Shown here: positions 28,472-30,735 of the stretch, in pieces
Layout: each line of letters starts with the position of its first letter
Numbering within the stretch: position 1 is the first letter of the stretch
Source: Bacteroidota bacterium
Lineage (GTDB): Bacteria > Bacteroidota > Ignavibacteria > Kryptoniales > JAKASW01
Reading direction: 5' to 3'
Assembly (NCBI GenBank): GCA_021845665.1
Contig: JAJZVO010000011.1
Coordinates: 21,951-85,950 of the forward strand
DNA length: 64,000 nucleotides
Program-made: the position numbers and the translations under genes
Notes under the pieces: generated by a model
Told to the model about the DNA's origin: nothing
Database searches by the model: none
Seen by the model: the letters and a program-made list of their open reading frames with translations, nothing else

Positions 28472-28499
28472 GGTGGAAAAATCTTAAGATTTTTCCACC
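28472..28499. other. 28-bp perfect palindrome in the porX/ilv divergent region
   Basis: GGTGGAAAAATCTTAAGATTTTTCCACC is exactly self-complementary. Confidence 0.9.
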
Positions 28500-28600
28500 A
28501 AGCATGAGCAGAGTTTACGATGCACCATTCGAAGTCTGATAACGGTCCTTCTCCTTCGCCGGACCGCTAAAGATTTAATGAAGATTTTCCGACCTTAGTA

Positions 28601-28629
28601 TTGACATCGAGCAACCGATTCCGTATACT
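28601..28629 (+). promoter_or_regulatory. sigma70-like promoter for the ilv leader
   Basis: TTGACA (28601-28606), 17-nt spacer, TATACT (28624-28629). Confidence 0.7.
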
Positions 28630-28643
28630 TTATGAAAGAAGAT

Positions 28644-28811
28644 ATGAACGATAGCGGATCAACATATGGCTCTAGTATGGCGGCGAAGAGTATTTCGCTG
28701 CCCGTAACCAATCCAATCGATTCAAATCTTTTTGGCCTCATTTCTCTAATTTCCATTCTAGTTCTCCTCCTCCTAAGCGAGGGGAATATCCTACTCGGCA
28801 TTATCAGCTAA
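28644..28811 (+). CDS. putative Leu/Ile/Val-rich attenuation leader peptide (55 aa; in-frame ATG also at 28632)
   Basis: Reads ..NLFGLISLISILVLLLLSEGNILLGIIS*; 17 of 26 residues L/I/V across codons 29-54; just downstream of the promoter and upstream of ilvB; below the 60-aa ORF cutoff. Confidence 0.6.
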   Translation: MNDSGSTYGSSMAAKSISLPVTNPIDSNLFGLISLISILVLLLLSEGNILLGIIS

Positions 28812-28906
28812 ATAGCCGAAGGTTATTCCCCGAGAGCACGAACCTAACAAAAATCCATTTACATCGACGGGAATAGCCTGAAGCCGAAGGTCTTGCCGAG
28901 GCATTC
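28781..28906 (+). promoter_or_regulatory. candidate attenuator: mutually exclusive stems downstream of the leader peptide
   Basis: 28781-28788 GGGGAATA pairs 28824-28831 TATTCCCC; 28821-28830 GGTTATTCCC pairs 28869-28878 GGGAATAGCC; 28871-28879 GAATaGCCT pairs 28899-28906 AGGCATTC. Confidence 0.5.
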
Positions 28907-29001
28907 GAGGTCGGTAACATAAGTGATGATCTGGTCCAAGATTTTTGGACAACGAAATGCGGACCACGGTCAATATCATAACAAAACACGGAGACAACAT
29001 A

Positions 29002-30735
29002 ATGAGCACCAACGAAATGACAGGCTCGGAAATATTCGTCAAGAGCCTGATCGAAGAGAATGTCGAATACATGTTCGGATACCCCGGAGGGGCGGTAATC
29101 GGGGTCTATGACGCGATGCACGACATGTCGCACATAAAACATATACTTACCCGCCATGAACAAGGCGCCGTACATGCCGCTGAAGGATACGCGAAGGCGA
29201 CCGGTAAGGTAGGAGTGGTACTCGTCACCTCCGGACCCGGCGCGACCAACACCGTCACCGGAGTAGCCGACGCCTACATGGATTCAGTACCCATCGTCGT
29301 TTTCACCGGCCAGGTGTCGACCCACCTCATCGGGAACGACGCATTCCAGGAAGCAGACATAATTGGAATCACAAGGTCCATAACGAAACATAATTTTCTC
29401 GTAAAAGACGTCAAACAACTCGCATGGACGATCAAGGCGGCGTTCCATATCGCCTCCACGGGCAGACCCGGCCCGGTCGTCGTGGATATGCCTAAAGACG
29501 TAATGGCATCAAAGGCTCCATTCCTCTATCCGAAAGAAGTTAAACTCCGAGGTTATCACCCGTTTTATTTCGGACACATGGGACAGATAAACAAGGCTGT
29601 CGAGATCATAAACGCATCGCGCAAGCCAGTCCTCTATGTCGGCGGCGGCGTCATAAATTCAAACGCCTCGACCGAATTATTCAACCTCGCAAAGAAGCTC
29701 AATGCACCTGTGGCGATGACCCTGATGGGACTCGGAGCATACCCGGGCGACGACAAGCTGTCGATGGGAAGGGTCGGCGTGCACGGGACCTGGTACTCGA
29801 ATGTTGCGGTGGATCAGTGCGACTGCCTGATAGCTATCGGCTCGCGCTTCGACGACCGCGTCACGGGAAACCCCGCGATGTTTTCCCCCAACTCCAGGAA
29901 AATCCATATCGACATCGACCCGTCGGCAATCAGCAAAAACGTGAAAGTGGATGTGCCGATAGTCGGCGATGTCCGTCACGTGCTCGAAAGACTCACCCCG
30001 CTGGTCAACCCTCTCAATACCAAGGAATGGCTCGAGCAAATCGAAGAGTGGAAGGCAGAGCATCCGCTCAGATATGAGAATGGTAACGAGATACGAGCCC
30101 AGTATGTGATCGAGAAAATTTATGAGCTGACGAACGGGAACGCGGTTATCACGACAGATGTCGGCCAGAATCAAATGTGGACCGCCCAGTTCTACAAATT
30201 CCTGAACCCCAGGTCGAACATTACATCAGGCGGTCTCGGGACAATGGGATTCTCCTTCCCCGCCGCGATGGGAGCAGCTTTCGGCGTGAAAGACAGGCCA
30301 GTCTTCAGCATAAACGGCGACGGCGGCATCCAGATGAACATTCAGGAAATGGCAACTGCTGTTTCTAACAAACTCCCTCTTAAGATAGTGATCTTGAACA
30401 ATGGCTACCTCGGAATGGTACGACAGTGGCAGGACCTCTTCTACAAGAAGCGGTATAGCCACGTAACTCTCGGGAATAACCCCGACTTTGTGAAGCTGGC
30501 CGAGGCCTTCGGCGGTGCGGGATTCGTCGCTGACAAAACCGAAGAAGTAGTCCCGACACTCGAGGAAGCAATGAAGATAAACGACCGCCCTGTCATCATC
30601 GATTTCAGGACCATTAAGGAAGACAACGTGTTCCCGATGATACCGAGCGCCGGTACCGTGGCACAGATAATCGACTATCCAAAATCAGTTAAGGAGCTGG
30701 AAATGGCAAAGACCCAGTCGGAGGCTGTGAAGTGA
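29002..30735 (+). CDS. ilvB: acetolactate synthase large subunit
   Basis: TPP-enzyme motifs: YPGGAVIGVYDAM, HEQGAVHAAEGYAKATGKVGV, NGDGGIQMNIQEM. Confidence 0.97.
   Translation: MSTNEMTGSEIFVKSLIEENVEYMFGYPGGAVIGVYDAMHDMSHIKHILTRHEQGAVHAAEGYAKATGKVGVVLVTSGPGATNTVTGVADAYMDSVPIVVFTGQVSTHLIGNDAFQEADIIGITRSITKHNFLVKDVKQLAWTIKAAFHIASTGRPGPVVVDMPKDVMASKAPFLYPKEVKLRGYHPFYFGHMGQINKAVEIINASRKPVLYVGGGVINSNASTELFNLAKKLNAPVAMTLMGLGAYPGDDKLSMGRVGVHGTWYSNVAVDQCDCLIAIGSRFDDRVTGNPAMFSPNSRKIHIDIDPSAISKNVKVDVPIVGDVRHVLERLTPLVNPLNTKEWLEQIEEWKAEHPLRYENGNEIRAQYVIEKIYELTNGNAVITTDVGQNQMWTAQFYKFLNPRSNITSGGLGTMGFSFPAAMGAAFGVKDRPVFSINGDGGIQMNIQEMATAVSNKLPLKIVILNNGYLGMVRQWQDLFYKKRYSHVTLGNNPDFVKLAEAFGGAGFVADKTEEVVPTLEEAMKINDRPVIIDFRTIKEDNVFPMIPSAGTVAQIIDYPKSVKELEMAKTQSEAVK

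Follow-up and report, generated by a model that had tools for sequence, protein, structure and literature searches.

A conserved leader element ahead of the ilv-cimA-leu operon and a candidate leader-peptide switch on branched-chain amino acid operons across a bacterial class

Upstream of the first gene of a branched-chain amino acid operon stands a short open reading frame (ORF) ending in Leu, Ile and Val codons, which raises the question of whether the operon is controlled by translation of a leader peptide, as proposed in an initial annotation of this locus. In the following, the window designates the whole stretch of DNA analysed, i.e., 64,000 nucleotides, to which all coordinates refer. 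On the + strand, the operon reads ilvB-ilvN-ilvC-cimA-leuA-leuC-leuD-leuB as identified with NCBIfam, where leuD is named from its place in the operon only, the NCBIfam search having returned nothing for its product at the cut-off used. The divergent upstream neighbour of the ilv leader is porX, and the interval from porX to the ilv promoter comprises a perfect inverted repeat, GGTGGAAAAATCTTAAGATTTTTCCACC, at 28473-28500. The first gene is:

29002-30735, + strand: ilvB, acetolactate synthase large subunit (NCBIfam TIGR00118, 808.9 bits)

The leader element at the ilv operon is real and conserved. Within the genus, 12 of the 13 genomes possess the leader ORF, 190-230 nt 5' of ilvB and after an invariant TTGACA promoter, and the promoter, the ORF and three RNA strands (A, B and C) are all kept in 12 of the 13; the thirteenth congener (84% complete) is devoid of the element, and its own ilvB match is distant (30% identity). 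The 372-nt leader RNA is more stable than its shuffles (z = -3.8), and the edges of the blocks conserved in the congener alignment approximately coincide with the edges of the A, B and C helices. The reading favoured here, with a probability of roughly 0.78, is that the ilv-cimA-leu operon is under the control of a leader sensed by the ribosome; the sign of the switch, the step that lowers transcription and the response to amino acids are the parts that we infer.

The 5' half of the element comprises the following features:

28601-28629, + strand: promoter TTGACA-17-TATACT (TTGACA 28601-28606, TATACT 28624-28629), scoring 11/12 against the consensus
28644-28811, + strand: leader ORF of 55 aa, MNDSGSTYGSS...LFGLISLISILVLLLLSEGNILLGIIS followed by the stop, with start and frame conserved and indels in-frame in 12 congeners
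28755-28775, + strand: codon run I L V L L L L, of which bases 28762-28771 are able to pair with strand A

The promoter lies where the initial annotation had placed it, is conserved, and corresponds to the sole promoter-like site of the intergenic region. All 59 aligned loci exhibit a promoter-like site (9-12 of 12 matches, with a -35 box exactly TTGACA in 53 of them) located 187-246 nt 5' of the leader stop; conserved 5' of the ORF throughout, it speaks against a transcription start downstream of 28811, which had been named as potential counter-evidence, and the transcript probably starts near 28636. Between the two start codons first offered for the ORF, the one at 28644 is conserved in the genus; the ATG at 28632 is not conserved among congeners and was dropped. 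Considering codon usage, ilvB has reached saturation at its synonymous sites among the congeners (pS 0.77). The first 10 leader codons display pS 0.68 and pN 0.23 (pN/pS 0.34), the peptide N-terminus (STY.S) being largely kept, and the last 19 codons display pS 0.21 and pN 0.05. This pS/pN pattern, set against ilvB, argues for an ORF that is translated and whose 3' end is constrained at the RNA level. The run of L/I/V codons reported ahead of segment A is indeed present, the C-terminal codons are nearly frozen in the genus and the first two CTC codons after I-L-V are invariant. As in classical ilv/leu attenuators, a short translated ORF with clustered I/L/V codons is thereby found directly 5' of the operon.

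The 3' end of the ORF and the region beyond it harbour the strands of the switch:

28781-28791, + strand: strand A, able to pair with either B or the codon run (class-wide A:B swap test, codon-shuffle control)
28795-28819, + strand: upper stem-loop UCGGC...GCCGA with the ORF stop in its loop; stem invariant among congeners
28821-28831, + strand: strand B, invariant among congeners and 5' side of the helix B:C covarying in 59 loci
28832-28868, + strand: B-C spacer, unstructured, A-rich and G-poor (composition by family)
28869-28878, + strand: strand C (GGGAAUAGCC), 3' side of B:C (covariation, 59 loci)

Helix A:B associates 28781-28788 with 28824-28831 (8 bp), together with 28790-91:28821-22 and the upper stem 28795-99:28815-19, and helix B:C associates 28821-28830 with 28869-28878 (10 bp, one G-U). 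Both pairs of segments were correctly located from the outset and remain complementary in relatives; the stop codon, expected within the A:B loop, is found in the loop of the upper stem 28795-28819. An extra competing helix joins the Leu codon run (28762-28771) to A and, for the congeners, RNAalifold chooses codon-run:A, the CGGC stem and B:C. The spacer measures 34-38 nt in the genus (37 nt in the focal leader; 46% A, 12% G) and 25-49 nt in other families (54% A, 6-9% G).

Within the genus, B:C covariation is impossible because B is invariant; inside B:C, strand C has two variable sites there, both keeping a G-U pair, and the outermost pair is lost in two congeners. With A and B nearly invariant in the genus, A:B is likewise without covariation at this level. 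Over 59 loci, 96.4% of B:C cells are paired, 6 pairs are changed on both sides with 46 double-changed cells, and covariation reaches 0.282 vs 0.146 when shuffled and <= 0.076 when slid, in an alignment that was itself fitted to the B:C helix. A duplex-energy swap of strands between loci is alignment-free, and gave -16.1 kcal/mol for matched and -12.6 kcal/mol for mismatched B:C (0/2000). For A:B, the swap test gave 0/2000 over 39 loci, a signal mostly between families (81/2000 within families f10/22), and expected pairs amounted to 8.35 vs 4.43 with the leader codons reordered, being higher in 56/59 loci. As in classical attenuators, mutually exclusive helices are under selection, as indicated by covariation for B:C and by swap and codon shuffle for A:B. 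The alignment of relatives proposed as a check in the initial annotation thus returned a conserved I/L/V type of peptide and a covarying B:C, the helices persisting in relatives.

The element extends well outside the focal family (f1). A covariance model built from the 12 congeners retrieved four loci in other families, before ilvD, ilvB or leuB. With R2, modelled on the B-spacer-C core, 24 of 40 examined matches outside the genus had an I/L/V-rich ORF 5' and ilvD/ilvB 3', including all of the first 15 (all E <= 3e-4); with R3, a model derived from 39 sequences, this arrangement was found at 20 of the 21 in-class matches that were new. Because the R2 and R3 models exclude the downstream genes, the promoter and the upstream ORF codons, gene context constitutes independent support. 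R2 matches in families f7, f14, f19 and f11 had no ilv gene near and were taken as chance and, in the sister family f2, ilvB is present and no leader was matched by covariance model. Altogether, covariance models added 48 leaders from four more families of this class (f10, f17, f22 and f26), located before ilvD or ilvB (once leuB), each just 3' of the stop of an ORF whose last 30 codons are 50-67% Leu/Ile/Val. The promoter/ORF/B/C layout is retained in all 48, the stop-to-B spacing is short in these families too (3-11 nt) and B:C pairing is kept; the peptide differs across families, with I/L/V richness and an LLGI-like stretch alone persisting. Outside the class, R3 returned just four weak matches in the phylum sample, three of them without an I/L/V-rich ORF or ilv/leu context. 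The other one (L149, another class of the same phylum, E 0.03) exhibits an I/L/V-rich ORF, then an ilvD N-terminal fragment and leuB, so that the element may reach beyond the class. At two loci the downstream ilvD was matched in part or in pieces: at L086, a match of R2, as a short piece only, and at L128 as two pieces, of which the second begins at residue 229, whereby the gene of L128 may be interrupted or frameshifted.

The proposed mechanism would operate as follows. Transcription would proceed from about 28636 and the leader ORF would be translated at once. With Ile, Leu and Val tRNAs charged, the ribosome would reach the stop and then leave or sit on the start of B; A:B would form before C is made, C would be left to a further segment, D, and expression of the downstream genes would be low. 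Under scarcity, the ribosome would dwell on the Leu/Ile codons -12 to -2, covering A, and B would wait across the 37-nt spacer until B:C forms and the genes are expressed. Pairing of C with D, or exposure of the spacer, would lower transcription, presumably through a Rho-dependent or other U-tract-free stop in the genus.

This logic was confronted with folding, the modelled ribosome blocking 17 nt 5' of the A-site codon and 12 nt counted from that codon, which is an E. coli-like assumption. In nascent RNA before C and without a ribosome, A:B comprised 9.5, 7.7 and 9.3 pairs in f1, f10/22 and f17, respectively; with a ribosome over A, it was lost or strongly reduced in all families, and 20 new loci reproduced this result. 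For the focal genus, A-blocking positions span approximately codons -12 to -1, with six I/L/V codons inside, and the contiguous run (-18 to -13) immediately precedes them; for a hard stall on the run, nascent folding predicts A:B, i.e., the "off" state. The earlier idea that a ribosome stalled on the L/I/V codons covers A and favours B:C agrees with nascent folding in all families in that B is left free for C, except that most of the focal run is too far 5'; sensing in the focal genus would fall to the final Leu of the run together with the Ile/Leu codons located within A or 3' of it (-12 to -2). At equilibrium, f17 adopts A:B and C:D without a ribosome, B:C with a ribosome at codons -17 to -4, and a mixture with a ribosome at the last codons or stop, A:B and C:D being partly restored; the further idea that a ribosome at the stop favours C:D is in part upheld by this folding in f17, not for the exact focal C:D helix. 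As a whole, the central proposal, i.e., an I/L/V leader with competing A:B and B:C before the ilv-cimA-leu operon, stands on codon selection, covariation, swap tests, folding and recurrence in families.

The same sensor could work with the opposite sign, codon-run:A plus B:C being the ground state and a stall on the run freeing A, so that A:B would form and represent the "on" state with C (and D) released, in the fashion of a his-type attenuator. At full length and equilibrium, the focal RNA (as codon-run:A plus B:C) and f10/22 favour B:C even without a ribosome, because of which the favoured logic needs kinetic, i.e., co-transcriptional, trapping of A:B. Across the 12 congeners at equilibrium, a shift from B:C to A:B plus C:D is obtained only with a ribosome at codons -19 to -13; the choice of codon-run:A by RNAalifold and the two invariant CTC codons point the same way. 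Against this, A:B beats codon-run:A before C is made in 12/12 congeners, and f17, whose core is the same, settles into the opposite ground state, with a U-rich stretch following its C:D. The inverted sign is considered unlikely.

Returning to the favoured sign, the segments intervening between C and ilvB are the following:

28900-28914, + strand: D region, forming a hairpin with 28876-28885 or, through GAGGUCGG at 28907-28914, pairing with Z
28732-28739, + strand: Z (TTGGCCTC), ORF segment complementary to D; 5-10 bp of Z:D in 10/12 congeners
28929-28971, + strand: distal hairpin before ilvB, at the same place in congeners with a sequence differing by species
28990-28993, + strand: GGAG, likely ilvB Shine-Dalgarno, unpaired in the minimum-energy fold

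The C:D helix as first described (28871-79:28899-906, 8 bp with a 1-nt bulge) is present, but its register is not conserved in congeners and shows no swap-test covariation. D at 28899-28906 was hence rejected as conserved partner of C in favour of GAGG[UC]C at 28907-28914, which in most congeners closes a hairpin by pairing with the 3' portion of C. A C-overlapping hairpin occurs in most loci of every family, in differing registers, and C..D segments adopt more stable folds than their shuffled versions (Stouffer -4.0 for the genus and -6.6 for loci outside it), bearing in mind that Stouffer sums, here and below, ignore the relatedness of loci and overstate significance; by swap test, C:D covariation was not significant in any group. 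As regards Z:D, permutation gave p ~0.005-0.015 in the genus with D fixed by position, and compensations are seen (UUGGCCUC:GAGGCCAA, UCGGCCUC:GAGGCCGA, CUAAGCCUC:GAGGCUUAG). A first test of the core, taking the first GAGG plus C or T as D, gave 150/5000; two congeners (G002 and G007) have no GAGG partner for Z, and a long-segment RNAduplex test of Z vs the post-C region gave noisy values that did not reach significance for the focal genus. Because the core was picked after inspection, the Z:D pairing is suggestive only.

How the switch is read out may differ between lineages. In the focal genus, the last helix with U-tract that characterises classical attenuators is missing: no U-tract was found after C:D (longest T run 1-4), as the initial annotation had remarked, nor any terminator-like site in the focal leader. 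Intrinsic termination at C:D is thus disfavoured, there being neither U-tract nor swap-test covariation of C:D. Over 20 kb of the window, hairpin-plus-T sites number 24 vs 19.6 in shuffles (sd 4.5), i.e., not clearly above. The focal genome encodes two rho-like genes, at C87:17788-19077 (682 bits, above the NCBIfam cut-off) and C92:70086-71129 (413 bits, below it). Since Rho is encoded and hairpin-plus-T sites are not clearly in excess, a Rho-dependent stop is possible. In f17, a U-rich stretch lies 3' of C:D. In f10, f22 and f26, a hairpin covers the Shine-Dalgarno of the first gene (ilvD or ilvB) in 31/39 loci (Stouffer z -6.2 vs shuffles), often as UCUGAAG...UCAGAGG, e.g., at L062, L083 and L146. 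Four loci (L084, L087, L076 and L140) exhibit a second small ORF between leader and ilvB, with a GTG start just past this hairpin (VRS..KY.GY..TSKRS...LTKSVV..., I/L/V-rich at its end in several), which resembles either another leader peptide in tandem or what is left of an ilvD start.

Such hairpins raise the alternative that the output would be translation of the first gene rather than transcription, the RNA switch opening or closing the Shine-Dalgarno hairpin. In many f10/f22/f26 loci, the 5' strand of the hairpin is moreover complementary to a segment of the leader ORF, but no covariation is seen between the two (16.6 for matched and 16.3 for mismatched combinations), and the focal ilvB Shine-Dalgarno is predicted to be unpaired, leaving translational readout a doubtful account of the present locus. 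Transcriptional readout by a ribosome-sensed leader being favoured for the focal operon, the broader picture of an undescribed RNA family in at least five families of one class, with one A:B/B:C switch, lineage-specific outputs (U-rich terminator, Shine-Dalgarno hairpin or, in the focal genus, a stop that lacks a U-tract and may depend on Rho) and a focal long-range ORF:D helix closing the structure, is tentatively put forward, at somewhat under even odds.

That the ORF product would be a small membrane protein, with conservation of the RNA being incidental, had been envisaged from the start. The peptide is hydrophobic and its N-terminus is under constraint in the genus; its C-terminal synonymous sites are constrained, though, it has no match in NCBIfam, and across families its sequence is not conserved beyond composition when stop-to-B spacing and B:C persist, which makes this explanation very improbable. 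Least credible is a metabolite-binding riboswitch or T-box in place of a leader-peptide sensor, suggested by a compact conserved RNA before amino acid genes, as pairing explains most conserved bases, the conserved strand A is in all families part of a translated ORF with an I/L/V bias, and Rfam 15, which includes T-box and amino acid leaders, gave nothing at gathering scores in the window region and six related loci and nothing even at E <= 1 in 28560-29010.

Considering known systems, the leaders of E. coli ilvGMEDA, ilvBN and trp combine a translated leader (I/L/V-rich in ilv), a stop in the first hairpin, a three-strand competition and a U-tract terminator. The present leader resembles them by its I/L/V-rich translated leader, its stop in the first hairpin and the A:B/B:C/C:D competition, but differs in the focal genus by the lack of a U-tract terminator, a 34-38 nt A-rich spacer between strands 2 and 3 and a probably very short 5' UTR; no sequence relation was seen. 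In the ilvB-II (Corynebacterium), ilvB-OMG and Leptospira ilvB motifs, an I/L/V-rich uORF precedes ilvB and attenuation was inferred from conservation, ilvB-II exhibiting a uORF of 15-17 aa and an intrinsic terminator stem with uridines (PMC10272879). In contrast to ilvB-II, the uORF here has 54-62 aa, no U-tract follows and the element also stands before ilvD in other families; the distinction from ilvB-II and ilvB-OMG is drawn from their descriptions, the present leader having no Rfam match. Actinobacterial cys operons possess leader peptides without obvious terminators, for which Rho was proposed and no conserved hairpins were found (PMC1262725); the leader peptide and lack of an intrinsic terminator are shared, whereas B:C covaries here. 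Within the Bacteroidetes, leader-peptide attenuation was also inferred for amino acid operons of Flavobacterium psychrophilum (PMC9723704), i.e., the same type of regulation in a different lineage, likened here by description. A comparative study of attenuation in bacteria dates from 2010 (as cited in PMC4833913). Nothing on this class was found in the open-access full-text literature, an earlier description in subscription papers being possible. As such, the kind of regulation is already known and the RNA core is without Rfam match.

Judged from sequence comparison, the sensor is well supported for a leader-peptide switch ahead of branched-chain amino acid operons throughout the class. Leader-peptide amino-acid attenuation would then be a common means of control among these bacteria, almost all uncultured, and its RNA core is sufficiently conserved for a covariance model. 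Sharing a common switch with different-looking outputs, these leaders may offer a natural series for following how attenuators move from one output to another, whether termination at a U-tract, termination by Rho or control of translation.
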